Below are positions 4,704 through 20,308 of a stretch of 64,000 nucleotides of DNA, in pieces; positions within the stretch are counted from its first letter, which is position 1; each line of letters opens with the position of its first letter. The notes beneath the pieces were generated by a model that did no database searches, was not told the DNA's origin, and worked only from the letters and a program-made list of their open reading frames with translations. Both the position numbers and the translations under genes were made by a program. Where the stretch lies: contig JAKAOG010000001.1 of NCBI GenBank assembly GCA_021823325.1, positions 62,001-126,000 on the forward strand. Reading direction: 5' to 3'. This DNA comes from an archaeon (lineage in GTDB: Archaea; Thermoproteota; Nitrososphaeria; Nitrososphaerales; Gagatemarchaeaceae).

Positions 4704-5756
4704 ATGGTCGGCCTGCTTCAGTTGTTCTCATGGATACTTCAGGGCGGGCTCCTGCTCCTTGCCTTCTTCGTCCCACTGGTCCTCCTGTTAGCCGCTTTTC
4801 CCCCTTTCCTACGATACCTTGCCAGGATAGGCCACGTCTCTGACGACGCCCACAAGTCGCCACCGACGAAGGTGCCGGAGCCCGCGGGGCCGCTCCTCTT
4901 CATCGCCATCCTTGCCGGAGAGCTGACAGTCGCCGCGGGATATGGCTCGTATGTCCCCCTGGCGCTCGTCGCAGGTGCAGGCATAGCCTTCGCGATAGGG
5001 CTTGCCGACGACCTTTACGTCCTGGGGGGGAAGACCAAACCGCTGTTGCTTTTGCTAGCCGGAGTGGGTTTCGTCAGTTTCGTCTTTGTCAGGCCGGAGA
5101 TATACACCTCTGACCTCAGCTTCCCTCTGCTCGGGGACACAAGTCCGCACTTCATCATTTTCACCGTCCTCGCGATAGTGGCTTTCCCGGTCGTCACCAA
5201 CGCGTTCAACATGATGGACGCGTTCAACGGCGAGATCTCCTGGTTCACGCTGCTCACCTCGCTGGCCCTGCTTGCTGGGGTGGTGCTCCACGAGGTCTAC
5301 AGAGGAGGCTTCTCCATGTCGAGGGTCGCTTCGGTCCTTCCACTCGTAGCCGTGGCTACTGGTTTCCTGGTGTATAACAGGTATCCCGCCAGGGCGTTCG
5401 ACGGGGACAGCGGGAGCCTGATGTTCGGCGCCATGTTCGCGGGCATCGCGATCACGGGCGGGGTGGAAGTGGCGGCGATGATAGCGATGGTCCCAGCCAT
5501 ACTCAACTCGTTCTACACGCTCTCGAGCGTCAGAGGCTTCGTGGAGCGGCGAAAGATGTCCTCGAGGCCGACTTTCATCGGGAGCGACGGACTCCTGCAC
5601 GCGTCCGTCGAAAAGGACGCCCCGAACACGTTGGTGCGCCTCGTCCTCCTCGCATCGCCTCTCACGGAGAAAGACCTGGTCAAGAGCATAGTCAAGCTCG
5701 TCGCGGTCGCGTGCGCTTTCTCAGTCGGCATCTCGGTCCTCACGTGGGTGCTCTAG
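4704..5756 (+). CDS. UDP-GlcNAc: polyprenyl-phosphate GlcNAc-1-phosphate transferase (GPT/AglH-like)
   Basis: 350 residues with about 10-11 hydrophobic helices. It has the family's DDAHKSPPTKVPEPAG start motif, GLADDLYVLGGKTKPL (the DD pair of the catalytic loop) and NAFNMMDAFNGE, the conserved N-x-x-D region. These proteins move a HexNAc-1-phosphate from a UDP-sugar to dolichyl or undecaprenyl phosphate at the cytoplasmic face. In archaea this is the first committed step of N-glycan assembly. Nearby sugar-modifying genes (5978-7406, 10000-11052) support a surface-glycan role. The exact sugar is not known. Confidence 0.85.
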   Translation: MVGLLQLFSWILQGGLLLLAFFVPLVLLLAAFPPFLRYLARIGHVSDDAHKSPPTKVPEPAGPLLFIAILAGELTVAAGYGSYVPLALVAGAGIAFAIGLADDLYVLGGKTKPLLLLLAGVGFVSFVFVRPEIYTSDLSFPLLGDTSPHFIIFTVLAIVAFPVVTNAFNMMDAFNGEISWFTLLTSLALLAGVVLHEVYRGGFSMSRVASVLPLVAVATGFLVYNRYPARAFDGDSGSLMFGAMFAGIAITGGVEVAAMIAMVPAILNSFYTLSSVRGFVERRKMSSRPTFIGSDGLLHASVEKDAPNTLVRLVLLASPLTEKDLVKSIVKLVAVACAFSVGISVLTWVL

Positions 5757-5760
5757 AAAC

Positions 5761-6012
5761 GTGAAGCTCCTTCCGCTTTATCTGATAGAGTCGGTCGCGT
5801 TCCTGCTGATAATCGCCGAAACCTACGTCTTCTTCATATTCGTCGTCCCGCTTGGATCGATTCCCCACACCCTGACTGAGTACACGTCGCTCGCGCTGCT
5901 GAAGGTCTTCCTCATACTCGTCCTTGGTGCGGTTTGGTTCTTCGTCCTCGATGAGCTGACGGGCCTCTACGTCAGGTCTAAGGTCGGGAGTTCTCCCAGA
6001 CCTTCATCTTAG
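5761..6012 (+). CDS. Small two-helix membrane protein, unknown function
   Basis: 83 residues starting at GTG, 4 bp after the AglH-like gene and probably co-transcribed. Two hydrophobic stretches (about residues 8-30 and 42-63) are followed by a short polar tail. I do not recognise a family. Its 3' end overlaps the convergent acetyltransferase gene by 35 bp. The close coupling suggests an accessory role in lipid-linked sugar synthesis, which is inference only. Confidence 0.55.
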   Translation: MKLLPLYLIESVAFLLIIAETYVFFIFVVPLGSIPHTLTEYTSLALLKVFLILVLGAVWFFVLDELTGLYVRSKVGSSPRPSS

Positions 6013-6463
6013 CGTCGAACTCTTTCCGCGTGTAGGCCACCCTCGCTGGGACCCCCATGACCACCTTGCCTGCCGGGACGTCCTTGGTCACGACGGCTCC
6101 CATCGCGACGACGCCCCTCTTCCCGACGGTGACCCCCGCCTTGATCACAGCCCTGGCTCCGATCACCGCCCCGTCCTCGATGGTTACCCCGATCATCTTC
6201 TTGCTGGGAGGGTAAGGGTCGTTAGTGAGCACCGCCGCGGGGCCGATGAACACGTTCTTCCCGATCCGGGACAAAGGCGGGATGTATACTCCCCCTTCGA
6301 TCATGGTCCCGCTCCCGATCTGGACGTTGTAGTCTACGTGCGCCAGCGACCCGATCTTGACGTTGTCTCCTATCGTCGTGTTCGAGCCCACGTAAGCGAA
6401 GTGCCAGATCTTGACGTTCTTTCCTATCTTCGCCTCAGGCGACACGAAGTTCATGACCTTCAT
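5978..6463 (-). CDS. Left-handed beta-helix sugar N-acetyltransferase (WbpD/WlbB-like)
   Basis: 161 residues made of hexapeptide repeats, such as IGKNVKIWHFAYVG, IGDNVKIGSLAHV and IGSGTMIEGG, ending in the usual MGAVVTKDVPAGKVVMG loop. It resembles the acetyltransferases that acetylate a 3-amino-3-deoxy UDP-sugar. The upstream gene (6468-7406), 4 bp away on the same strand, is a Gfo/Idh oxidoreductase, and a pair of this kind makes diacetamido sugars in bacterial O-antigen synthesis. It probably makes a modified sugar for an archaeal surface glycan. The specific substrate is inferred. Confidence 0.82.
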   Translation of the reverse strand: MKVMNFVSPEAKIGKNVKIWHFAYVGSNTTIGDNVKIGSLAHVDYNVQIGSGTMIEGGVYIPPLSRIGKNVFIGPAAVLTNDPYPPSKKMIGVTIEDGAVIGARAVIKAGVTVGKRGVVAMGAVVTKDVPAGKVVMGVPARVAYTRKEFDAKMKVWENSRP

Positions 6464-6467
6464 AACA

Positions 6468-7406
6468 TCACTCGAGGTATACCGGCGTCCCCGATGTGCT
6501 TGAAGCCAGGGCTGCTTCAGCGACCCTCATGACATTGAGCCCGTCTTTTCCTGTGACCAGGGGCTGTCTCTTTTCTCCGACGGCGTCTACGAATCCCTTC
6601 AGCTCGAGCATGAGCGGCTCTTGGAAGGGCCTGGTAGGGACCGTCGTCGTGGCTCCTTCGTGGATGCTCGTCTGCTGCGTCACGAAGTCGACGTCCACGA
6701 CTCCGCCTGAAAAGACCGCGCTCATCGTCCTGACTCTGTTGGGCGTGATCCAGTTCGTCACCAAGAAGGCGGTCTTCTGCCCCGAAAATCCCAGCATGAT
6801 GGTGGCGAAGTCCTCATGCTCAAGGGGGGCGAGCGCGGCGCCCACCCTCGCGTAGACGACTTTTGGGGCCTCCCCGAACAACCAGCAGGCGGTGTCGATG
6901 TCATGCACAGACGCGTCTTTCACTATGCCGACGTCGCTTATGCCCAGCCCTCTCCTGTTCTCCCTGTGGAACTCCAGAAGGATTGGCTCCCCCAGCTTGC
7001 CTTCCGAGAACATATGCTTCAGCGCGGTTATCGGCGGGTTGAACCTCTCGATGAATCCGACAGTGATGAAGCGGTTAGCGCTCTTCGCAGCCTCGATGAG
7101 CATCTCTCCGTCCTTCATCGAGGTGGACATGGGCTTCTCGATGAAGACGTGCATCCCCGCGGTAAGCGCCTGCGTCGCCACCTGGAAGTGCGTGGTGGCA
7201 GGCGTGCAGACCGTGATCGCGTCGAGGTTCTCCTTCTTCAGCATGGCCTCGAGCGAAGTGTACCCGGGGACATGGTAATTCTTGGAGAAGGTGTCCGCCC
7301 TTGCCTGGTCCATGTCACAGACAGCTGCCAGGCAGTGGAGCTCGTTAAACACCCGGACGTGGTTCTTTCCCCAGCCTCCCGTCCCGACGACGCCGACCCG
7401 CACCAT
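6468..7406 (-). CDS. Gfo/Idh/MocA-family NAD(P)-dependent sugar oxidoreductase (WbpB/WlbA-like)
   Basis: 312 residues. The N-terminal Rossmann fold has VGVVGTGGWGKNH at residues 4-16. The family motif EKPMSTS near residue 92 contains the conserved EKP lysine, and the C-terminal alpha/beta domain follows. It oxidises or reduces a sugar, often at C3 of a UDP-sugar acid, and is in operon with the acetyltransferase downstream. The ATG at 7406 lies about 28 nt from a TATA-like GATATAGG (7431-7438), so this gene opens the operon with a leaderless start. Confidence 0.83.
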   Translation of the reverse strand: MVRVGVVGTGGWGKNHVRVFNELHCLAAVCDMDQARADTFSKNYHVPGYTSLEAMLKKENLDAITVCTPATTHFQVATQALTAGMHVFIEKPMSTSMKDGEMLIEAAKSANRFITVGFIERFNPPITALKHMFSEGKLGEPILLEFHRENRRGLGISDVGIVKDASVHDIDTACWLFGEAPKVVYARVGAALAPLEHEDFATIMLGFSGQKTAFLVTNWITPNRVRTMSAVFSGGVVDVDFVTQQTSIHEGATTTVPTRPFQEPLMLELKGFVDAVGEKRQPLVTGKDGLNVMRVAEAALASSTSGTPVYLE

Positions 7407-7536
7407 CAGAAATTCGGTCCGAATCCTTGCGATATAGGGTTACTGCCATGGAACGCCGGCTACCATCCAAGGCCCACGCCGGGGAGAGTCAACCCGCCAT
7501 GGTTCTCGCCCCAAAGCAGCTTTCAAAGTCTTAGAG

Positions 7537-7542
7537 TTATAT
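7537..7542 (+). promoter_or_regulatory. TATA-like box for small secreted protein / cytochrome b-Rieske genes
   Basis: TTATAT, centred about 27 nt before the TTG at 7567. This supports that TTG as a leaderless start and a promoter for the 7567-8758 gene run. Confidence 0.5.
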
Positions 7543-7566
7543 GGAAACGTCTGGGTCGAAGAGGGG

Positions 7567-7794
7567 TTGCAGAGGCTTTCACTGATATCTCTGGCTGCTC
7601 TCGTCGCGGTGGCGGGCATCCTTGCTCTCGCCGTCTTCGTCCATCCCGGGGTGATTTCATCGCCTGCGCAGGGACAGAGCGCCGGCGCTCAGGGGGCGAA
7701 CCAGATTGGCACGAACAGCTCTCTTCTGTCGCAGCCACCACCTTCTAGCTCCGGCGGCGGGAGCGATGACGGCGGCGGGTCGTCCGACGGGTAA
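7567..7794 (+). CDS. Small secreted or membrane-anchored low-complexity protein
   Basis: 75 residues from TTG. A hydrophobic N-terminal segment (about residues 5-25) is followed by a Ser/Gly/Gln/Asp-rich tail containing GGGSDDGGGSSDG. I know no homologous family. It lies 14 bp ahead of the cytochrome b-like gene and is probably transcribed with it and with the Rieske gene. It may be a small outward-facing subunit or linker of that complex (inference). The leaderless promoter at 7537-7542 is the main evidence that it is real. Confidence 0.5.
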   Translation: MQRLSLISLAALVAVAGILALAVFVHPGVISSPAQGQSAGAQGANQIGTNSSLLSQPPPSSSGGGSDDGGGSSDG

Positions 7795-7808
7795 CCGGAG
7801 CCTGATAC

Positions 7809-8285
7809 TTGCCGGAGTCCTTGTTCCTCGGGGACATAACGGGTTTCGCTGCGCTGGCCTTCCTGTGCCTTTCCGCTTTCATGATGGCCTTCAGGGCGAA
7901 GTTAGTGACGCTGTCAGGGGGGACCGCGCCCCTCAGGAACGCTCACGTCATCGTCTCGCTCCTGGGGACGGTGTTCCTCGCCCTCCACATCGGGATCCTG
8001 TTCAACCTCCCGGTGACCATACCGCTCGACCTGGGGTACGGCGCGTTCGCGCTGGGGTTGTTCCTGTGGGCGACCGGCATCGGCTTTCTTGAGCGCAACA
8101 GGGACTCCTACTTTCTCCATGGATCGACGGCGGTGGCCCTTGTCGCCCTCGTCGTCGTACATGCTGCGTCTTCAGGGATTAACTTCCCCGAGTACGTAGC
8201 CGTTCCCGCGTTGATTGCCTCAGGTTCGATTGCACTGTTAAGCGGCGCGTTAACCATTAAGAGGCCGCGCCCGAAAGCCAGGTGA
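7809..8285 (+). CDS. Cytochrome b-like four-helix membrane protein with paired heme histidines
   Basis: 158 residues, TTG start, with four to five hydrophobic helices. Two helices each carry a pair of His 14 residues apart: AHVIVSLLGTVFLALHI (about residues 46-60) and LHGSTAVALVALVVVHAA (about 98-112). Four such ligands in two helices suit two stacked b-type hemes across a membrane, as in cytochrome b and ferric-reductase-like domains. The stop overlaps the start of the Rieske gene by 4 bp, so the two products are probably partners in quinol oxidation. It is far shorter than a normal cytochrome b (about 380-420 residues). A ferric-reductase-like protein is the alternative. Confidence 0.7.
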   Translation: MPESLFLGDITGFAALAFLCLSAFMMAFRAKLVTLSGGTAPLRNAHVIVSLLGTVFLALHIGILFNLPVTIPLDLGYGAFALGLFLWATGIGFLERNRDSYFLHGSTAVALVALVVVHAASSGINFPEYVAVPALIASGSIALLSGALTIKRPRPKAR

Positions 8286-8758
8286 CAAAATCGGACAGGC
8301 GCGACTTCATCAGGAGGCTGTCGATGACCGCCGTGTTCGGGATCATCGGGGCCTTCGCCTACATCGAAGCTTTTGCCAAGATCGGAGAGCAGGCGCAGTA
8401 CAGCCTTCTCCAGTCCGGTACCGCAGCAGGAACGCAGCAGGCTCCTACAGGATACGTGTATGTCGCCCCTTTGTCTGCCCTGTCGGCCAAGACTTCAGCC
8501 TACTTCGACCACCCTTCCCACGGGTCTTCGATCCTGGTGAATTTCGGTGGGCAGTGGAAGGCGTTCAGCGCCATCTGCACCCATGCGGGGTGCACGGTCG
8601 ACTACACCGGCTCGTCGATCTTCTGCCCGTGTCATTCAGGGAGCTTCAGCCCGTCCAACGGGAGCGTCCAGGGCGGTCCTCCCCCGTCTCCGCTCCCCGA
8701 GTACGGAGTGGTGATACAGTCAGGGGACCTCTACGTCAGCCAGGCCATCATCAACTGA
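8282..8758 (+). CDS. Rieske [2Fe-2S] protein, quinol-oxidising complex type
   Basis: 158 residues, GTG start overlapping the previous stop (GTGA). The N-terminus DRRDFIRRL with a hydrophobic segment after it is a twin-arginine signal and anchor. The cluster ligands are in CTHAGC (about residues 97-102) and CPCHSG (about 113-118), the C-x-H...C-x2-H pattern with the extra disulphide cysteines of bc1/b6f-type proteins. The Gly-Pro-rich loop after the second box is present (GGPPPSPLPEY). It would take electrons from quinol with the adjacent cytochrome b-like protein and pass them to an outer carrier such as the cupredoxin at 3170. Confidence 0.9.
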   Translation: MTKSDRRDFIRRLSMTAVFGIIGAFAYIEAFAKIGEQAQYSLLQSGTAAGTQQAPTGYVYVAPLSALSAKTSAYFDHPSHGSSILVNFGGQWKAFSAICTHAGCTVDYTGSSIFCPCHSGSFSPSNGSVQGGPPPSPLPEYGVVIQSGDLYVSQAIIN

Positions 8759-8771
8759 ATACGAGCACGGG

Positions 8772-9902
8772 TCAGTCTCTTCGAAGAGCGGGGGTCGCGT
8801 AGATCAGGGTCGCATCTGCGTTCCCCAGCGCCTTCTTCATCGCTTTGAAGGAGTCCTGGTCTTCCCTGGAGCAGACGATTACCACGTTGTGCTTCAACGG
8901 GTCAAACGCCTCTCGGCCCCCTTTGACCCTCGAACCTGAGACCACCTCCACGTCTGTCACGTAGTCCCTCAGCCGCTGCTGGATGCTCTCGGCGACCTGA
9001 AGCCTTTCCCCCCTCATCTCGTACTTGTCGAGGTTCCAGAGAAGGGAGATCTTGGTCCTGCTGGCCTTCAGTTGCTTCTCCTTGAGCACCTCCCTTGTCT
9101 CGTCCACGACGTATCGCACGTAGTTGTCGAAGCTCTTCAGCGTGGCTCCCGCCAGATACGCGATTGACTCTCCAGTCTCTTCGCTGGCTTGGATTGCTTT
9201 CAACTCGAACAGATATTTCGAGAATTCGTCCAAGTACACCTCGGCCTTCCGCTGCAGGGATACCTTAGCCTCGCGCGCTCGCCTCGCCATCTCGATCTCG
9301 GTCACCGACTCCACCGCCGCTTCCATGACCCCTGCGGCGTACTCCAGTTCGGCAGAGAAGACATTCTGAGAATTGAGGGAGTAGCCCAGCCCGGTGAGCG
9401 GACCCTTGTCCATCAACCCCGCCGCGGACACCACCGCAGGCTTCTGCTCTCTCGGTCTCAGGGGAAGGTACGCATAGGTCAGCGTCGAACCTACCTGCAA
9501 CCCCGTCTGTTTCTCTACGAGCATGATGTTCTCCGAGTTACCGCCGGGACCAGTCGGGAGAGAGTTGACGAGTGTCACCCCCTTCGAGAGGTACTTCGAG
9601 AGTTCGCGCATCTTTGACACAGCCTCGATGAGGGTCTCGTCAGACGGTCGCCTCAGCTTGGGGGTGAAGAAGATCACCTGGGCCTCGCCGAGCACCTGTT
9701 CGAGCGGCTTGAAGCTAAGCAGCGGCTCTTCGGCCATGACCTCCTGGAGGTTGGGGTTCTTCTTCAGGAACCCCGGCTCTATGTCCATGGCCATCTGAAG
9801 GGTCTCGTCGACGATCGTCACCTGGGCCCTGTCGACAAGGTCCGCAGCCAATCGGTATGCTTCGCTCGTAAGCCCATACATCGCGACCTTGATCTTTGGC
9901 AA
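8772..9902 (-). CDS. Rossmann-fold protein, distantly nucleotide-sugar dehydrogenase-like
   Basis: About 376 residues from a TTG at 9902; the open frame runs further upstream but there overlaps the divergent gene. The N-terminus has a Rossmann beta-alpha-beta (KIKVAMYGLTSEAYRLAADL then VTIVDE). A long helical region with many Lys, Glu and Arg follows, and then a C-terminal segment (HNVVIVCSREDQDSFKAMKK) like the UDP-binding domain of UDP-glucose/GDP-mannose dehydrogenases. The usual GxGxxG is altered and no catalytic Cys motif is clear, so enzyme activity is uncertain. It is convergent with the Rieske gene and divergent from a DUF354 gene, which again suggests glycan metabolism. Confidence 0.5.
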   Translation of the reverse strand: MPKIKVAMYGLTSEAYRLAADLVDRAQVTIVDETLQMAMDIEPGFLKKNPNLQEVMAEEPLLSFKPLEQVLGEAQVIFFTPKLRRPSDETLIEAVSKMRELSKYLSKGVTLVNSLPTGPGGNSENIMLVEKQTGLQVGSTLTYAYLPLRPREQKPAVVSAAGLMDKGPLTGLGYSLNSQNVFSAELEYAAGVMEAAVESVTEIEMARRAREAKVSLQRKAEVYLDEFSKYLFELKAIQASEETGESIAYLAGATLKSFDNYVRYVVDETREVLKEKQLKASRTKISLLWNLDKYEMRGERLQVAESIQQRLRDYVTDVEVVSGSRVKGGREAFDPLKHNVVIVCSREDQDSFKAMKKALGNADATLIYATPALRRD

Positions 9903-9931
9903 AACCTGCTCGGGGCTCGCAGCCCGTTTGG

Positions 9932-9940
9932 TATTATACT
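9932..9940. promoter_or_regulatory. TATA-like element between divergent Rossmann and DUF354 genes
   Basis: TATTATACT. It is about 34 nt from the minus-strand TTG at 9902. The plus-strand TTG at 10000 lies further away but has a GAGG 7 nt upstream that can act as a ribosome binding site. Confidence 0.35.
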
Positions 9941-9999
9941 TTGAAACAAGGGCAAACGGATTAGTATCAAGACCTGGGCCGACTCTGCGAGGAACCGAG

Positions 10000-11052
10000 T
10001 TGCGCGTCTGGTTCGACGTTCTTACGCCCAAGCAGGTGCTGTTCTTCGGGCCCATTATCAGGAGCCTCAGTGACTCAGGCGCAGAGGTCCTGGCCACCTC
10101 GCGAAGATACCGTGAAGTCGGACCCCTCGCCGAAAGGTCGGGGCTGAAGCTCGAATATGTCGGAGACCGGGGTCGCAGGGGTGAGGAGGACCAGCTTCTG
10201 GCCGCGACCAGGCGGCAAGCTGAGATGATACCACTGGTCAGAGACTTCCGACCGCAGGCCGCAGTTTCGATAGCTTCAGCGGTCTGTGCGCGGATAGCCT
10301 TCGGCCTGAAAGTCAAGCACGTCGCTGTGAACGACTCTCCTCACTCAGAAGTCGCAGGGAGGCTCTCGATCCCGCTTAGCCATCACCTGCTTTGCCCTTG
10401 GGTAATCCCATATGCTGCCTGGAAGCGTTTTGGAATCGGAAAGGACCAGGTCACGACATATCACGCTCTTGACCCCGCCGCCTGGCTAAAGCGGGCCCCT
10501 CTCCCCGGCCCGGTACCAAAGCTCAGGACCGGGAGGAAGACAATCACCGTCAGGGTTCAGGAGAGCGACGCCCCCTATCTTGCGAGTGCAGATGCGAAGT
10601 GGGTTGACACCGTCCTGACGTCGCTCCTCGGGGCGTTCCCCGACGCCAACCTGGTGGCTCTATGCAGGTATGACTTCCAGGTGGAGGAGATAAGGAGAAA
10701 ATTCGGCTCGAGGTGGATCGTCCCCGGCGAGGTCGTCAGCGGCCACGACCTTCTCTCCTCTACAGACCTGTTCGTCGGGATGGGTGGGACGATGAACGCC
10801 GAAGCCGCCTTGATGGGCGTGCCGACCATATCCGCGTTTCAGGGGGCGCTCTACACTGACAGGTACCTTGGCTCTGTGGGCCTTCTATCCAAGGCGCTCA
10901 CGCCTGCCGCCCTTCTCTCAGAGGCGAAGAGACTGTTGAACTCGACGTCCAGGAAACGCTACGCTTCCAAGGCAAAGCGAACGCTCGACGCAATGGACGA
11001 CCCTGTTCCAAAGATAGCAGGATTCATCAGAAAGACTGCCAATCAAGCCTAA
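10000..11052 (+). CDS. DUF354-family predicted glycosyltransferase
   Basis: About 350 residues. Its beginning LRVWFDVLTPKQVLFFGPI is the typical start of the DUF354 family, which has the two-Rossmann GT-B fold related to UDP-GlcNAc 2-epimerase. Further family segments are VNDSPHS, YHALDPAAWLKR, FVGMGGTMNAEAALMGVPTIS and the C-terminal YTDRYL region. These proteins sit in archaeal polysaccharide loci but their exact reaction is unproven. The TTG at 10000 gives the expected N-terminus and has GAGG 7 nt before it; the upstream codons of the frame lack family similarity. tRNA-Gln follows 28 bp downstream. Confidence 0.8.
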   Translation: MRVWFDVLTPKQVLFFGPIIRSLSDSGAEVLATSRRYREVGPLAERSGLKLEYVGDRGRRGEEDQLLAATRRQAEMIPLVRDFRPQAAVSIASAVCARIAFGLKVKHVAVNDSPHSEVAGRLSIPLSHHLLCPWVIPYAAWKRFGIGKDQVTTYHALDPAAWLKRAPLPGPVPKLRTGRKTITVRVQESDAPYLASADAKWVDTVLTSLLGAFPDANLVALCRYDFQVEEIRRKFGSRWIVPGEVVSGHDLLSSTDLFVGMGGTMNAEAALMGVPTISAFQGALYTDRYLGSVGLLSKALTPAALLSEAKRLLNSTSRKRYASKAKRTLDAMDDPVPKIAGFIRKTANQA

Positions 11053-12136: not shown

Positions 12137-13228
12137 TTGTCGCCAGACCCCAGGCTGACAGTTCCCTCAGGTAAGGAGGCAGAGCTTTACCGAGACCTTT
12201 CAGGAGGTAAGGTACAGTGCACCGCCTGCGCGCGGCTCTGCCAGATAGGAGAAGGGCAGGTGGGACTGTGCGGCGTCCGCGGAGTCGTCGGGGGGAAACT
12301 CTACCTCCTCGTCTACGGCCGGGTGATGGCGGGGCACATCGACCCGATTGAGAAGAAGCCTGTCGTCCACTACCGGCCAGGCTCCAAGATATTCTCTCTC
12401 GCTACCAGTGGTTGTAACTGGCTTTGTCGTTACTGCCAGAACTACGACATCAGCCAGAGGAGGAAGATCGAGGGGACTGAGGCGGCGCCAGGCGACATGG
12501 TGGCCCAGGCTGTCGCGCACGGCTGCGAAGGAATGGCGTACACCTACAACCAGCCGACAATTTTCATGGAGTACGCCCGCGACGTGGGGAAGCTTGCGAG
12601 GTCGAAGGGGCTCTTCAACATATTCGTCTCCAACGGCTACGACACGCCTGAGACCGTTGCGATGATGGACGACTTCCTCGACTGCATCACCGTCGACTTC
12701 AAGGGGAGCGGAGAGACGAAGTTCGTCCGGAGCTACATCGGCATTCCCGACGCCGGCCCCATCTATCAGACCTTGAAGGAGATCCAGCGCCGGGGCAAGG
12801 TCCACATCGAGGTCACAGATCTGATAGTCCCAGGGGTCGGCGAGTCGCTGGAAGAGGCGGCGAAGATGTGCAGGTGGATATACGACAACCTCGGGCCAGA
12901 CACGCCAGTCCACTTCCTTAGGTTCCACCCCGACTACAAGATGATGGATCTTCCCTGGACTCCGGTGGAGACCCTTGAGAAGCATGTCAGGGTCGGAAGA
13001 GATGCGGGGTTGGATTACGTCTACATCGGGAACGTCCCAGGGCACCCCGACGAAAGCACCTACTGCCCCGGATGCAAGTCGGTCCTCATCAAGAGATACG
13101 GCTACGAGATCCTCGAGTACAACCTGGACCAAAACAGCAAGTGCAAGACCTGCGGATACAAGACCCCCATCGTAGGGCCCCTCAGCAAGTCCTTCGCCGG
13201 CGACCGGTTCCTATCCGTGATCAGTTAG
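12137..13228 (+). CDS. amrS: AmrS, AmmeMemoRadiSam-system radical SAM protein
   Basis: 363 residues from a TTG with a TATA-like CCTTAAT about 28 nt upstream. The radical SAM cluster motif is SGCNWLCRYCQN (C-x3-C-x2-C) near residue 95. The N-terminal CTACARLCQIGEGQVGLCG Cys motif and the C-terminal CPGC...CKTCGY pair are typical of AmrS. This protein is conserved with AmmeMemo partners in archaea and bacteria; the reaction is unsettled and the other partners are not in this window. It overlaps the convergent thioredoxin reductase gene by 8 bp. Confidence 0.9.
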   Translation: MSPDPRLTVPSGKEAELYRDLSGGKVQCTACARLCQIGEGQVGLCGVRGVVGGKLYLLVYGRVMAGHIDPIEKKPVVHYRPGSKIFSLATSGCNWLCRYCQNYDISQRRKIEGTEAAPGDMVAQAVAHGCEGMAYTYNQPTIFMEYARDVGKLARSKGLFNIFVSNGYDTPETVAMMDDFLDCITVDFKGSGETKFVRSYIGIPDAGPIYQTLKEIQRRGKVHIEVTDLIVPGVGESLEEAAKMCRWIYDNLGPDTPVHFLRFHPDYKMMDLPWTPVETLEKHVRVGRDAGLDYVYIGNVPGHPDESTYCPGCKSVLIKRYGYEILEYNLDQNSKCKTCGYKTPIVGPLSKSFAGDRFLSVIS

Positions 13229-14165
13229 CCAGGGGAGCTTCGAGCTTCTGTTTGACGAACTTCTCTGCGTCCAGGAGCGCCTTGCACCCGTCGGCAGCCG
13301 CTGTTATCGCCTGCCTGTAGCGGAAATCATGGACGTCCCCCGCCACGAAGACCCCTGGGACGCTGCTCTCGGTCCCATTGTGCAGGGCCACGTAGCCTTT
13401 CTGGTCGAGCTCAACCTGTCCCCTGAATATCTCTGTGTTCGGGTCATACCCGATGGCTACGAACACCCCATCCAGCTGGATGTCTCCCTCCTTTCCGGTC
13501 TTCAGGTTCCTGACCTTCACCCCGCTCACCTTTCCGTCGCCCAATACCTCGGTCACGGCGGAGTCCCACACGAAGCTGACCTTCGGATTCGAGAGGGCCT
13601 CCTTCTTCAGCGCTGCGTTGGCCCTGAGCTCGTCTCTACGGTGTATCACCTGCACGGAAGTGGCGAACTTCGTCAGGAACGTCGCTTCTTCCAAGGCTGT
13701 GTCCCCCCCGCCGACCACCGCGACCTTCTTCCCTCTGAAGAAGAAGGCGTCGCACACCGCGCAGTTGGAGACCCCCTTCCCCATCAGCTTCATCTCTGAT
13801 GGGAGGTTGAGGCGCCTCGGGTTCGCCCCGGTGGCGATGATCACCGAAAGCGCGCGCGTGACCCCTGACCCTGTGTAGACCTCCAACGGATACGTCTTGA
13901 AGTTCACCTTCACCACGTCTTCCTGGACAAGCCGCGCTCCGAGCCTCTCCGCCTGGGACTTCATCCGAGAGATCAGGTCGGGCCCAAGGACGGGGTCAGG
14001 GAACCCCGGAAAGTTCTCTACTTCGCTTGTGAGCATGAGCTGGCCCCCATACTTCGTCCCCATGAACACGAGTGGGTCGAGGTCGGCCCTGCATCCGTAG
14101 ATGGCCGCAGTGAGCCCTGCAGGCCCGGAACCAATGATCACTAACTTCTCAGCTTTTGCTTCCAT
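13221..14165 (-). CDS. trxB: Thioredoxin reductase
   Basis: 314 residues. FAD-binding GSGPAG near residue 12, the redox-active pair in CAVC near residue 136, the NADPH-binding GGGDTALEEA near 153 and the FAD-contacting GVFVAGDV near 274 are all in order. It reduces thioredoxin or glutaredoxin-like proteins using NADPH. The HRR motif (IHRRDELRA) that favours NADPH is present. The ATG at 14165 is clear. It is convergent with amrS; the divergent neighbour region holds the ribophorin-like gene on the same strand upstream. Confidence 0.93.
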   Translation of the reverse strand: MEAKAEKLVIIGSGPAGLTAAIYGCRADLDPLVFMGTKYGGQLMLTSEVENFPGFPDPVLGPDLISRMKSQAERLGARLVQEDVVKVNFKTYPLEVYTGSGVTRALSVIIATGANPRRLNLPSEMKLMGKGVSNCAVCDAFFFRGKKVAVVGGGDTALEEATFLTKFATSVQVIHRRDELRANAALKKEALSNPKVSFVWDSAVTEVLGDGKVSGVKVRNLKTGKEGDIQLDGVFVAIGYDPNTEIFRGQVELDQKGYVALHNGTESSVPGVFVAGDVHDFRYRQAITAAADGCKALLDAEKFVKQKLEAPLAN

Positions 14166-14222: not shown

Positions 14223-15899
14223 CTAGAGCAGCTTCGCTTCTCTCTGTACCGTGTGCAGCTCGTCCGAGAGCTGGTTCAGGGCTCTTTCAAGCCTCTTGGT
14301 GTACTGCGGGAGCAACCTGTCAAAGACTTCCTTCCTCATCTGCTTCAGGTAGTACTGCTGGTAGAGGTTCAGCTTGTCCTTGGTCGCCCTGTCGACCTCC
14401 CTCTCGGTCGCCTGCATCTGGTTGACGACTTCGGAGAACCTCTGGCTCGTGGCCTTCTGCTTTACCTCGTTGAGCCGCGCAAGCGCCTTGCTCCTGAATG
14501 TGTCTACCTTCCCCCTGAGCTCGTCGAAGTACGCCTTGTCCAGCTCGCTGGAGTCCTTCGACGCGATCTCCTGCCAGATGCCGTTGATGAGGCTGGTCTT
14601 CTCGTCGAAGGCATTGACCATAGCTTCGGCCTGCTCGGACGACGCCTCTGCTTCTTCCTCTTCGTCGCTTGCCGCCTCCGCTGAGGTCGTTCGTGAAGCG
14701 AAGAGCCCGATGAGCAACAGCATGAAAAGCACCGAAGCTACCGGTATCCCTCCCTCAAGGAACCATCCAGCGGACAGGCCGTAGGAGAAGGTGGTGCTCC
14801 CGGTCTGCCACGGCGTGACGGACGTCAGGTTCGTCGGAGAACCCTCGGACACCCTGGCGCTCGGAGGCATAGAGATCGTGATGCTGTATGAATCGGCGAA
14901 CGCGTTCACTGGAGGGGCGTCGGGGATCTTCAGCGTCACCTGACCGCCGGATACCGAATAGTAATTCGAGCCGAGAGGATACTGGTAGGTCAGAGTGAAG
15001 TTGGTGCTCGCCGGGACCCCGTCGCTAGGATAGCCTACGACGAAAGTGGCCAAGTCGATCGCTCCGCTGGATAGGGCGAGGGTGAAGGGCGGGAGCAGCA
15101 CAGGCTCGTCCGCGGTAGCAGTCACGATCGTCACCTGGGCGGACGGCAGGGTAAGCGACGCGACGTAGATCTGCGAAAGCGGGATTGTCCCGAGGTTCTC
15201 GAACTGTATTTCGTCCGTCACGAGCGGGGTCCCGCTTGACGAGGCGGTTATCGTCCGCTTCTCCGAGAAGACATGGAGTGGATTGAAGTCTTCGGTCGTG
15301 GAAGAGGCGACAGCTCTGACAGAGGTCACGGCGCCGGGGGTGGCGTTGGTGACGCTCGAAGAGTAGGTGTTGTTGCTCCCGAGGAGCGTGGGGGTGAGCC
15401 CCAGAGGAGCCGAGGTGAACTCGGTAGAGACGGGCATCTGGACGATGTTCGCTAATCTCCCGACCTCAAGGTTGATCGAAGGAGAGGAGAGGGTAAGGAC
15501 TTCGAGGCTTCCGTTCTTGGACGTCGAGACGACGTTGTTCGCCAGCACGCTGAGCATGAAAGTGGCGTTGCCCCCCGCCTGTATCGACTGGCTTCCTGTG
15601 ACCGTGAACGGACCTCCAGTAGGGGATGATCCGGTGGAAAAGCCCGAGCTGATGGTCGAAGCGACGATGTCAGATGACAGGTTCCCGAACCCTATGGTCA
15701 TGCTCGGGACTTGGATGGCGGACGTCCCGTTGTTCACGACCAAGATTGTCTCGTTGACAGTCGCAAACCCATATCGGTTCAGGGTATAGACGCTTTTGAC
15801 GCTCACCTGGGAGGTGCCCTGGGCGACCGCGGTCCCCATGACCGGGAGCACGGACAGGACGAGAAAGAGCAGGAGCGACGCTGCTACTAGGCGTTTCAA
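14223..15899 (-). CDS. Ribophorin I (OST1)-like type I membrane protein with cytosolic coiled coil
   Basis: 558 residues, TTG start. A signal peptide (residues 1-27) leads into about 350 residues of outward-facing beta-rich sequence with many N-x-S/T sites, one helix at about 380-401, an acidic linker (EEEEAEASSEQAEA) and a 120-residue Lys/Glu/Arg-rich helical tail. Two beta domains, one helix and a cytosolic helical domain of about 150 residues are the layout of eukaryotic ribophorin I. Short segments also look alike, such as VKSVYTLNRYGFATVNETI at the start and TYQYPLGSNYYSVSGGQVTL before the helix. That relation is inference. If true it would be an oligosaccharyltransferase accessory subunit. 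Otherwise it is an unknown surface protein. Confidence 0.55.
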   Translation of the reverse strand: MKRLVAASLLLFLVLSVLPVMGTAVAQGTSQVSVKSVYTLNRYGFATVNETILVVNNGTSAIQVPSMTIGFGNLSSDIVASTISSGFSTGSSPTGGPFTVTGSQSIQAGGNATFMLSVLANNVVSTSKNGSLEVLTLSSPSINLEVGRLANIVQMPVSTEFTSAPLGLTPTLLGSNNTYSSSVTNATPGAVTSVRAVASSTTEDFNPLHVFSEKRTITASSSGTPLVTDEIQFENLGTIPLSQIYVASLTLPSAQVTIVTATADEPVLLPPFTLALSSGAIDLATFVVGYPSDGVPASTNFTLTYQYPLGSNYYSVSGGQVTLKIPDAPPVNAFADSYSITISMPPSARVSEGSPTNLTSVTPWQTGSTTFSYGLSAGWFLEGGIPVASVLFMLLLIGLFASRTTSAEAASDEEEEAEASSEQAEAMVNAFDEKTSLINGIWQEIASKDSSELDKAYFDELRGKVDTFRSKALARLNEVKQKATSQRFSEVVNQMQATEREVDRATKDKLNLYQQYYLKQMRKEVFDRLLPQYTKRLERALNQLSDELHTVQREAKLL

Positions 15900-15956: not shown

Positions 15957-17345
15957 ATGCGAGACGCTCCTAGGCGTCACCCCCTGCTGCCCAACCTCGA
16001 CGAAGCCCTGGTAGCCAAGATGCTTGAGAAGGTAGGCGCCGGGTCGGTCGACGAGCTCTTCTCCGACATCCCTCAGAAGGTGCGCCTTGGGCGGAAGCTG
16101 AAGATCCCCGAAGGGGCAGCCGAGCATGAAGTGAGGCGCGAGGTCCAGTCGAAGCTCGCCCAGAACATGACCCCTCCCAATTCACTCTGCTTCCTCGGCG
16201 GCGGGGTCTGGCCCCACTACGTCCCCGCGGCGGTGGAGTCGATAACCTCCAGGCAGGAGTTCTACACGGCATACACCCCCTACCAGGCCGAGGTCAGCCA
16301 GGGGATGCTGCAGTCTCTCTTCGAGTACCAGAGCCTCATGTGCGACCTGCTGGGGATGGAGGTCTGCAACAGCTCGCTCTACGACTGGGCGTCCGCCGCC
16401 GGCGAAGCGGTGAGGATGGCTGGAAGGGTCACAGGGCGAAGGAAGGCGCTCCTCGCAGGGAACTCCGGGACCCAACGGAGGTCTGTGATCGGGACCTATA
16501 CCGAACCGATGGGAATGTCCCTAGAGACCGTGGCCTACGACAAGGCCAGAGGGACCCTCGACATGGGAGACCTTAGGCGGAAGCTCTCGCCGGACGTCGC
16601 CTGCCTCTACATCGAGAACCCGAACTTCTTCGGCGGGATAGAGGACGCCATAGAAGACGTGGTCGGGGCCGCGCACGAATCCGGGGCACTCGCAGTCGTA
16701 GGGGTCGACCCGATCTCGCTTTCGCTCCTGAAGGAGCCTGGAGGGTATGGCTCTGACATCGTCGTGGGGGAAGGCCAACCCCTGGGGATCGCGATGAACT
16801 TCGGCGGTCCACATCTTGGCATCTTCGCTGTGCGAGACCTGAAGCTCGCAAGGAGCATGCCTGGCAGGTTGATCGGGATGACCACCGCCGCTTCAGACCC
16901 CAGCAGGAGAGCGTTTGCAATGGTGCTACAGGCTAGAGAGCAGCACATCAGGAGAGAGGCTGCGATGTCCAACGTCTGCACAAACCAGTCCCTCATGGCC
17001 CTGGCGGCGGCGAGCTATCTCTCGCTCCTGGGGAAGGAAGGGTTCCGCTCGCTAGGCGAAGCCGTGATCTCAAACTCGCACTACGCAGCTAGGCGGCTCG
17101 GACAGGTCACGGGCGTGGTTTCTCCTCACTTCAAGGGCGCCTACTTCAAGGAGTTCGTGGTATCATACAGGAAGAAAAAGGCGGAGACCGTCTACAGACA
17201 AATGGCGAAGAAGGGCGTCCTTGCGGGGTATCCAGTCCCCCGAGAGTTCGGTCTCGGGGCGGAAGCAGGGTCATACTGCGTGACCGAGGTCCACACCCCT
17301 GAGGACATCGAAAGGCTGGCCTCGGCTCTGGAGGGGGCGCTGTAG
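15957..17345 (+). CDS. gcvPA: Glycine decarboxylase P protein, subunit 1
   Basis: 462 residues with the usual N-terminus (HPLLPNLDEALVAKMLEKVG), FLGGGVWPHYVPAAVE, YTPYQAEVSQGMLQ and CTNQSLMAL near residue 342. It forms a heterodimer-based P protein with the next gene, which decarboxylates glycine and loads the aminomethyl group on the lipoyl H protein. The ATG at 15957 is 26 nt downstream of a TATA-like box, so the mRNA is probably leaderless. The H, T and L proteins of the system are not in this window. Confidence 0.93.
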   Translation: MRDAPRRHPLLPNLDEALVAKMLEKVGAGSVDELFSDIPQKVRLGRKLKIPEGAAEHEVRREVQSKLAQNMTPPNSLCFLGGGVWPHYVPAAVESITSRQEFYTAYTPYQAEVSQGMLQSLFEYQSLMCDLLGMEVCNSSLYDWASAAGEAVRMAGRVTGRRKALLAGNSGTQRRSVIGTYTEPMGMSLETVAYDKARGTLDMGDLRRKLSPDVACLYIENPNFFGGIEDAIEDVVGAAHESGALAVVGVDPISLSLLKEPGGYGSDIVVGEGQPLGIAMNFGGPHLGIFAVRDLKLARSMPGRLIGMTTAASDPSRRAFAMVLQAREQHIRREAAMSNVCTNQSLMALAAASYLSLLGKEGFRSLGEAVISNSHYAARRLGQVTGVVSPHFKGAYFKEFVVSYRKKKAETVYRQMAKKGVLAGYPVPREFGLGAEAGSYCVTEVHTPEDIERLASALEGAL

Positions 17346-17346
17346 C

Positions 17347-18819
17347 TTGAAGAGGTTCAGGCAGGCGGTCTGGGACGAGCCGCTCCTCAAGGAGCTCAGC
17401 AAGCCTGGAAGAGTGGGGAGCACGTTCCCCGTCGACAAGAGGGTCAGAGCACGAATAAGGGACCCGCTTTCGCTCGTGCCGTCTTCCGTCAGGAGGGAGT
17501 CGGTCAACCTCCCCGAGCTGTCCGAGCTCCAGGTGCTGAGGCACTTCAACCGGCTTTCCCAGATGAACTTCTCCGTCGAGCTGGGCATGTATCCGCTCGG
17601 CAGCTGCACGATGAAATACAATCCAAAGGTATCTGAGGTGGTGGCATCCTCTGACGGGATGAAGAACGCCCATCCTCTCCAGCCCACAGAGACGGTCCAG
17701 GGACTTCTCTCGGTGTTCTATGACCTGGAGCGCAGTCTGAGCGAGATAACCGGGATGAACCGCTTCTCGCTGTCCACAGCCGCCGGCGCCCAGGGAGAGC
17801 TCGCCGGTGTCCTCATGATAAGGAAGTACCTGAGGGATCATCGATCCGCCAGAGACGAGATCCTCGTCCCCGACTCGGCGCACGGAACGAATCCCGCTAG
17901 CGCCGCCATGGCTGGGTTCAAGGTAGTCAAGGTGCCTTCAGACGAGGACGGCCAGGTGAAGGCCCGGACGGTGGGAGAGCTCTGCTCCGATAGGACCGCC
18001 GGGATGATGTTCACAGTCCCCAACACCCTCGGGCTCTTCGAGGGAGAGGTGTCGGAGATATGCGAAGCTGTGCACCAGGCCGGGGGGTTGATGTACTACG
18101 ACGGCGCCAACATGAACGCCCTCCTCGGAAGGGCACGGCCGGGAGACATGGGGTTCGACGTCGTTCACCTCAACCTGCACAAGACATTCGCCACGCCCCA
18201 CGGAGGGGGCGGACCCGGAGCAGGACCGGTAGGGGCTAGCAAGAGGCTCGCCGAATATCTCCCCGTCCCCGTGGTGTCGAAAGGAAAAGACGGATACTAT
18301 CTCGACAACAGCCTGGAGCACTCCATAGGGCCGCTCAAAGGCTTCGTCGGGAACTCCGGCGTCCTCCTCAGGGCCTACGTGTACATCCGCCTGCTGGGCG
18401 CGTCCGGCCTGGCTGACGTGTCTTCACTGGCGGTCCTGGCTGCGAACTACCTATGGAAGAGCCTCGACCCGGAGGCCTTCCCGGCATCCCATGGGAAAGA
18501 GCTCAGAAGAAAGCACGAGGCGGTGGTCTCTGTGAAGAGCGAGCTCCCAGGCGCCGCCATGTCGGTCGCCAAAGCCGTCCTCGATTACGGCATGCACGCG
18601 CCTACCGTCTATTTCCCTCTCATCGTACACGAGGCGCTGATGATCGAACCGACCGAGTCGGAGCCGGTGGAGATGCTCGATGAATACGCCTCCGCCCTGA
18701 ACGAGATCTACGCTAGGATGAAAGACAGGACGCTAGGCGAAGCGCCCAGGAACGCAAGCGTAGGAAAGGTGGACGAAGTGAAGGCTTCGCACCCCTTGAC
18801 CCTGAAGACTCATTGGTGA
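17347..18819 (+). CDS. gcvPB: Glycine decarboxylase P protein, subunit 2
   Basis: 490 residues, TTG start 1 bp after gcvPA. The PLP-binding lysine is in HLNLHKTFATPHGGGGPG near residue 281. Other family signatures are YPLGSCTMKYNP near residue 84 and PDSAHGTNPASAA near 178. It carries the PLP and acts with GcvPA. The two-gene (split) P protein is the form common in archaea and many bacteria. The operon seems to end here, because the next gene has its own TATA-like box. Confidence 0.95.
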   Translation: MKRFRQAVWDEPLLKELSKPGRVGSTFPVDKRVRARIRDPLSLVPSSVRRESVNLPELSELQVLRHFNRLSQMNFSVELGMYPLGSCTMKYNPKVSEVVASSDGMKNAHPLQPTETVQGLLSVFYDLERSLSEITGMNRFSLSTAAGAQGELAGVLMIRKYLRDHRSARDEILVPDSAHGTNPASAAMAGFKVVKVPSDEDGQVKARTVGELCSDRTAGMMFTVPNTLGLFEGEVSEICEAVHQAGGLMYYDGANMNALLGRARPGDMGFDVVHLNLHKTFATPHGGGGPGAGPVGASKRLAEYLPVPVVSKGKDGYYLDNSLEHSIGPLKGFVGNSGVLLRAYVYIRLLGASGLADVSSLAVLAANYLWKSLDPEAFPASHGKELRRKHEAVVSVKSELPGAAMSVAKAVLDYGMHAPTVYFPLIVHEALMIEPTESEPVEMLDEYASALNEIYARMKDRTLGEAPRNASVGKVDEVKASHPLTLKTHW

Positions 18820-19282: not shown

Positions 19283-20308
19283 TTGACTGTAAACAATCGT
19301 AACGTAACCGCCATCGGAATCGGAAGTGCAGGGATCAAGATCGTCTCTCTGCTGAGCCGACGGTCTCTGCTGATAGACAGGTACGCCTACGTCTCCTGCG
19401 ACGAAGGCGATTTCTCTACCGTAGACCCGAAGGACACGATTCTCGTTGAATCGCCGATCGACCAGAAACTCTCACCGGCGCTGGTCCGGGGCCTCGCCCT
19501 CAACTCTGCGAAAGGGATACAGGCTGCCGTAAGCGGTTCGGAAGTGGTGTTCGTGGTCGCCGGCCTCGGTGGCGCGACCGGAAGCGGACTAGCACCAGTG
19601 GTGGCGTCCATGGCAGAGCAGTGCGGCGCGACAGCCGTTGGAGTCGCCGTCATGCCCTTCGAGTTCGAGAAGAAGATGAAGTTCTACGCCGGTGTCTCCC
19701 TGCGCAGGCTGAGAGCAGCGGCCAAAGGCGTCGTGGTGGTCGACAACGACACCCTGCTGAGGTCATCGCCAGAGGACTCCACCCTCGCGAACCTCTATGA
19801 CACCGCCAACAAGGCGGTGGTGAAGGCGCTGGCGTCCATGCTGTCAAAGCCGGCGGAGGGGTCAAAATCGCTGGGGATGAACAAGCTCCTCGGGACGGTG
19901 ATTCAGGAGGGGTATTCTCTCCTCGGGGTGTCAAGCAGCGGCGCGGACGACAAGGCCGAAGACGCAATCGCTGGCGCGGTGGTCTCTCTCGGCAAGCTGG
20001 CAGAAGCCAGGGAGGCAGGCCACGCCGTGGTGAGCCTGAACGCCGATGAGAGCCTCTCGGCCCAAGAAGTGGGACTAGCGGTCGGGCGCCTGGGTTCGAT
20101 AATGGACAGCGAAGGACTGGACGTCGAATATGCGGTTGACTACTCCGGGTCCGCCCAGCTACAGGTCAGCCTTCTCGCGTCAGGGTTCAGGTCGACGAAG
20201 TACGACGACTACGACCCTCTCGCAAAGGTGCTCGGAAACAGGGTCCTCGACGATGAAATGGATACCGCGCTCCCAGGCGGATTAGAACTGCTCCAGTCCT
20301 GCGACTAG
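19283..20308 (+). CDS. Tubulin/FtsZ-superfamily protein with a degenerate catalytic loop
   Basis: 341 residues, TTG start. The N-terminal nucleotide-binding half matches FtsZ: IGIGSAGIKIVSLL near residue 10, the tubulin signature GLGGATGSGLAP near 95 and MPFEFEKKMK then the DNDTLL loop near 155. In the second half the T7 loop that should read N-x-D-F-A-D, and that completes the GTPase site of the next subunit, reads SLGMNKL. The activating acidic residues are missing. It may bind GTP but should not hydrolyse it by the normal route. Thaumarchaeal lineages divide with Cdv proteins and their FtsZ-like proteins have unclear roles. It is convergent with metG (7 bp gap). Confidence 0.8.
   Translation: MTVNNRNVTAIGIGSAGIKIVSLLSRRSLLIDRYAYVSCDEGDFSTVDPKDTILVESPIDQKLSPALVRGLALNSAKGIQAAVSGSEVVFVVAGLGGATGSGLAPVVASMAEQCGATAVGVAVMPFEFEKKMKFYAGVSLRRLRAAAKGVVVVDNDTLLRSSPEDSTLANLYDTANKAVVKALASMLSKPAEGSKSLGMNKLLGTVIQEGYSLLGVSSSGADDKAEDAIAGAVVSLGKLAEAREAGHAVVSLNADESLSAQEVGLAVGRLGSIMDSEGLDVEYAVDYSGSAQLQVSLLASGFRSTKYDDYDPLAKVLGNRVLDDEMDTALPGGLELLQSCD

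Follow-up and report, generated by a model that had tools for sequence, protein, structure and literature searches.

A divergent OST1 (ribophorin I) homologue in Gagatemarchaeaceae and related Thermoproteota

Introduction

In human and yeast cells, OST1 (ribophorin I) belongs to the complex by which newly made proteins receive their sugar chains, and for Asgard archaea it is usually counted as a eukaryotic signature protein. A cytosolic four-helix bundle occurs in human and Asgard OST1 and is absent in yeast Ost1. In the Asgard archaeon MK-D1, the C-terminal domain of OST1 forms a four-helix bundle in a crystal structure (8whn), and ribosome binding has been reported for the cytosolic domains of human and MK-D1 OST1 (PMC11417166). 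The same 2024 study places OST1 in eukaryotes, TACK and Asgard archaea in a single sentence (PMC11417166), Ost1 and Ost3 are spoken of elsewhere as reported in Asgard archaea (PMC10307638), and in a 2016 survey based on BLAST and HMM searches, none of the accessory subunits had a convincing homologue in prokaryotes (PMC4973528). In the literature that we searched, no description of OST1 from the order Nitrososphaerales was found.

Here, we analysed a protein encoded in a 64,000-nucleotide stretch (hereafter the window, meaning the whole stretch) of a draft genome of an acid-soil archaeon of the Gagatemarchaeaceae. It shares the layout of human RPN1 (6s7o_E, 8b6l_O): a signal peptide, a pair of beta domains facing outward, a single membrane helix and, in the cytosol, a four-helix bundle. 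It differs from human and yeast OST1 in being only ~10-13% identical to them and, as a single sequence, under the Pfam cut-off; it differs from eukaryotic OST1 also in its location in the archaeal plasma membrane, with no sign of the other eukaryotic OST subunits apart from thioredoxin-like PF04756 matches. Compared with MK-D1 OST1, the cytosolic four-helix domain is alike in place and length, whereas the protein itself is thaumarchaeal and much diverged, and its ribosome binding is a prediction where that of MK-D1 has been reported. Further close counterparts are Thermoproteota proteins positive for Pfam Ribophorin_I (PF04597), which are similar in profile and architecture and can be found with Pfam, whereas the Nitrososphaerales branch cannot. 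OST1 in TACK archaea is already known, and the Nitrososphaerales OST1 is a new, divergent and unannotated branch of it. The first-pass annotation had anticipated that a confirmed ribophorin would bear on the origin of the eukaryotic complex; that line of evidence is extended by the Nitrososphaerales branch but was not opened by it, given that TACK OST1 appears in PMC11417166.

Results and discussion

Gene and predicted architecture

The ost1 gene lies at positions 14223..15899 of the window on the minus strand, where the first-pass annotation had placed it, and encodes 558 residues from a TTG start. It is a real gene, since open homologues of ~50-100% identity occupy the equivalent syntenic place throughout the genus. 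Matches were found in 48 of 61 related genomes, with identity falling from 100% to ~20% across many families of the order; the homologues are always open, and the neighbourhood is constant within the family. Named relatives are thaumarchaeal MAGs, several with names pointing to soil or groundwater, and one of them, SubAcS15-57, is a member of the Gagatemarchaeaceae (Group I.1c, GTDB f_UBA183) (PMC10640624), a kinship that would put the window in this family as well. One MAG (G001) carries two OST1 copies (L051 and L053, on JAGWHE010000009 and JAGWHE010000062), 70% and ~64% identical to the window OST1, which represent either a paralogue or a mixed bin.

An AlphaFold2 model made with 25 sequences (mean pLDDT 82.4; beta domains mostly 85-97) and the sequence itself agree with the layout proposed in the first-pass annotation. 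All features lie on the minus strand. The signal peptide (residues 1-27; 15819..15899), with a putative cleavage site near AVAQ judged by eye, contains a modelled helix at residues 3-17. It is followed by extracellular beta domain 1 (residues 31-207; 15279..15809), delimited by modelled strands and the Foldseek alignment to RPN1, and by beta domain 2 (residues 208-375; 14775..15278), likewise drawn from AlphaFold and Foldseek, which starts with a conserved R215..D229..N235.G237 pattern and includes a conserved TYxYPL motif (Y307). The hydrophobic transmembrane helix (residues 386-404; 14688..14744; modelled at 387-404) leads into an acidic cytosolic linker of low pLDDT (residues 405-425; 14625..14687) with 9 D/E and 0 K/R. 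The C-terminal cytosolic four-helix domain (residues 426-558; 14226..14624) was assigned from the model and from profile matches to the corresponding C-terminal domains in human RPN1 and MK-D1 OST1. After the membrane helix, the model has helices at 415-447, 455-482, 486-517 and 523-557, giving a cytosolic part of ~150 residues. A signal peptide together with one C-terminal membrane helix, seen in both sequence and secondary structure, defines a type I membrane protein, and the acidic linker and signal peptide agree with an N-terminus outside and a C-terminus inside the cell. Among close relatives, the cytosolic domain is the best-conserved part of the protein (73% identity vs 50% for the beta domains), which is consistent with a strongly constrained cytosolic partner.

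Homology to OST1

Searched directly, the single sequence gave no ribophorin match in Pfam, NCBIfam or PDB, and no NCBIfam model exists for these proteins. The window-family profile, compared directly with the same three databases, also returned nothing relevant. In the genome search, positions 307-368 of PF04597 matched window positions 14826-15005, within beta domain 2, at 11.5 bits (E 0.045), below the curated cut-off of 25, which is a detection threshold rather than a biological feature, and hmmscan was empty. The similarity that had been noticed ahead of the membrane helix is thus real, though sub-threshold. Taken alone, such a match would be chance-level, because similarly weak matches in Nitrosopumilaceae-like genomes (f10) proved unrelated to OST1, the fetched ORFs being cyclase-like. 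By direct searches alone, the protein would rate as unknown.

Thermoproteota relatives provided the bridge. Of 398 genomes of the phylum, 52 gave a PF04597 match above the curated cut-off, and 30 of the proteins found in this way were fetched (L078-L107). Ten of these were scanned whole: nine passed the cut-off (39-53 bits vs 25) with no better family, and the tenth, L106, had no PF04597 match in the whole-protein scan. The profile of the window family (A1) matched all 30 at 39-132 bits, most over their full length, while reversed and layout-keeping block-shuffled control copies reached at most 5.5 bits. Searched separately, the beta domains scored up to 80.7 bits against these relatives, with controls at 6.7, and the cytosolic domain 33.7 bits, with controls at 8.4. 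In the reverse direction, with a Thermoproteota profile built without relatives of the window protein (A4), the window protein reached 67.9 bits and its relatives, without exception, 50-152 bits, with controls no higher than 8.1, and hhalign aligned A1 with A4 over 540 columns (probability 100, E 5e-46). Against PDB, A4 reached human RPN1 at 2.9e-28, yeast Ost1 at 1.4e-15 and the MK-D1 OST1 C-domain (8whn) at 5.7e-18. A combined archaeal profile (A5) reached human OST1 at 1.3e-25 and 8whn at 9e-11. At the profile level, sequence homology to the Ribophorin_I family therefore extends over the length of the protein.

The predicted fold is in line with the profile evidence. The seven best Foldseek matches in PDB were all human (8b6l, 6s7o, 8pn9, 6s7t) or yeast (6c26, 7oci, 6ezn) OST1 chains, at E 1e-19 to 9e-12, and the next match, an unrelated protein, stood at 3e-4. 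An unrelated fold for the beta domains had been set beforehand as the result that would speak against a ribophorin, and it did not occur: both extracellular beta domains have the OST1 fold. TM-scores to OST1 were moderate (~0.4), because the domains pack differently or because the inter-domain geometry of the model is unsure. Taken alone, the cytosolic domain is a four-helix bundle. Its fold search was non-specific, with RPN1 third (E 0.05, TM 0.66), as four-helix bundles are too common, and the argument for this domain rests on sequence profiles for that reason. Two-way profiles with controls, the chain of profiles that leads to OST1 of human, yeast and Asgard archaea, and the fold all agree with the ribophorin I-like identity proposed at first pass. 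We conclude that the window protein is a true distant relative of OST1/ribophorin I, and that the first-pass interpretation as a whole is largely supported.

In two of the bridge proteins (L085 and L094), the OST1 cytosolic helices weakly resemble CdvA (PF18822 7.5e-5; PDB 9s9g 1.3e-5), possibly reflecting only coiled-coil composition.

Genomic neighbourhood and descent

The divergent neighbour of ost1 is gcvPA-gcvPB (15957..18819, plus strand), and distant OST1 loci retain this arrangement. The OST1/gcvPA pair, again divergent, is also present in another family (G060) and, with two small ORFs in between, in G101, a genome outside the order whose protein scores 51.7 bits with PF04597 and which also has the gcvPA-gcvPB neighbourhood. 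These genes are orthology support for ost1 and no part of the machine. In a tree of Thermoproteota OST1, the Nitrososphaerales sequences split from all the others, the PF04597-positive proteins included (100/100). We favour vertical descent over recent transfer because the tree splits by order and the OST1/gcvPA neighbourhood is found in distant lineages.

Other genes adjoin this locus. A thioredoxin reductase gene, trxB (13221-14165; TIGR01292, 381 bits), follows ost1 co-directionally, as it does in nearly all loci of the family (L074 is an exception, and in L076 it lies some distance off). A divergent tubulin/FtsZ-like protein (19283-20308; PF00091 70 bits; TIGR00065 94 bits, far under the cut-off of 295) adjoins gcvPB and is conserved in the family. 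In G011, a relative, the STT3 gene stands directly after apparent gcvT and gcvH genes (L131:3580-7582), such that both OST genes, OST1 and STT3, adjoin glycine-cleavage genes at different places (window 15957-18819; L131:3580-7582; L133; L124), possibly as remains of one ancestral cluster or by chance.

The first-pass annotation had also drawn on AglH-like and other sugar genes for a glycosylation role. A sugar-biosynthesis stretch does exist at 4704-11052, comprising a GT4 glycosyltransferase (PF00953, AglH/ALG7 type), a hexapeptide transferase, a GFO/IDH/MocA oxidoreductase and DUF354. However, it is weak evidence for such a role, because unrelated genes (ZIP transporter, radical SAM, trxB) separate it from ost1.

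Co-occurrence with STT3/AglB

An STT3/AglB gene, which the first-pass annotation had proposed to look for nearby, was found neither near ost1 nor elsewhere in the window's draft genome (86% complete). This absence is most likely a matter of incompleteness, because G011, whose OST1 is identical to that of the window, encodes a full-length STT3 (L131:5171-7582) with an intact WWDYG at 558. STT3 and OST1 genes are separated by ~15 kb in G120 and G191, both from one family, and are scattered elsewhere, and we did not retain their linkage as general evidence. Likewise, we make no claim for OST3/6: almost all PF04756 matches in relatives cover the thioredoxin part only, and E. coli proteins match too.

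Across the 398 Thermoproteota genomes, A5 detected OST1 in 209 at E 1e-3, with 167 strong matches (E at most 1e-15), and STT3 was found in 354. STT3 was present in 161 of the 167 strong-OST1 genomes vs 193 of the 231 others (Fisher p 2e-5, genomes counted regardless of relatedness). The strong-OST1 genomes without STT3 include G061 (100% complete) and G330 (92%). Two families that we take to be ammonia oxidisers, f10 (Nitrosopumilaceae-like) and f8 (Nitrososphaeraceae-like), have kept STT3 and have no convincing OST1, with one f8 genome giving a marginal match (5.6e-4). AglB does not generally depend on OST1 to function, since many ammonia-oxidising archaea encode STT3 and show no detectable OST1. 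Family f2 has neither STT3 nor OST1, whereas other families of the order have OST1.

Short OST1s of ~416-454 residues occur in family f20 (G063, G072, G096, G112, G155, G209, G233, G245 and others). They match the profile to ~414 and so lack, like yeast Ost1, the greater part of the cytosolic four-helix domain.

Proposed role and alternatives

We consider it probable that the protein is a vertically inherited archaeal OST1 orthologue, most likely a non-catalytic, ribosome-docking subunit of the AglB (STT3) oligosaccharyltransferase through which glycosylation would be coupled to translocation. As a type I membrane protein, it would expose its two beta domains to the cell exterior, the archaeal counterpart of the ER lumen, where they may contact AglB and the nascent chain, while the conserved four-helix domain in the cytosol would attach to the large subunit of the ribosome close to the exit of SecYEG. 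Docking of the ribosome in this manner would couple N-glycosylation to translocation. Contacts with AglB and the ribosome are likely by analogy with known OST1 biology, namely the eukaryotic OST structures and the work on MK-D1.

The protein could also be a true OST1 homologue that works outside any oligosaccharyltransferase, as a membrane receptor for the ribosome or translocon whose outer domains serve another partner (e.g., in secretion or S-layer assembly), with OST1 recruited to the OST no earlier than in Asgard archaea and eukaryotes. The stronger conservation of the cytosolic domain would suit such a receptor, as would the lack of STT3 from the window's draft genome and from a few strong-OST1 genomes (G061, G330), and the ammonia oxidisers that have STT3 without detectable OST1. 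However, the intact STT3 of G011 accompanies an identical OST1, STT3 is enriched among OST1-positive genomes, and the outer domains, whose eukaryotic counterparts face STT3, are still clearly recognisable as OST1 domains; we therefore regard a receptor of this kind as unlikely. A convergent layout, in which an unrelated cell-surface protein with beta-sandwich domains, a helix and a coiled or helical tail merely resembles ribophorin I, could draw on the empty single-sequence HMMER searches against Pfam and PDB, on how common four-helix bundles and beta sandwiches are, and on the fact that sub-threshold PF04597 matches can arise by chance. Yet the reciprocal profiles exceed their controls by far (up to 132 vs 5.5 and 67.9 vs 8.1 bits), with the beta and cytosolic parts doing so separately, the top seven whole-chain Foldseek matches are all OST1, and the neighbourhood is common to a PF04597-positive relative. 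Convergence is already refuted by these results, and we give it next to no probability.

We judge the odds of a wider scenario to be even: the ancestor of TACK and Asgard archaea may already have had OST1 with a ribosome-docking domain, multi-subunit, ribosome-coupled N-glycosylation would then be older than eukaryotes and the Asgard lineage, and a secondary loss of OST1, with AglB kept, would have occurred in the ammonia-oxidising thaumarchaea.

Implications

Gene annotations understate both the age of OST1 and how widely it occurs among archaea. With a clear though divergent orthologue in Gagatemarchaeaceae, in about ten further families of the order and in many other Thermoproteota, the subunit moves to a deeper position in the archaeal tree, and its absence in earlier surveys (e.g., PMC4973528) is partly a detection limit. 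The new profile lets proteins that lack an NCBIfam model be annotated, and OST1 becomes testable in non-Asgard archaea. What the subunit does can be approached through a natural series of archaea: those with OST1, those without it, and those whose short OST1 has no cytosolic domain.
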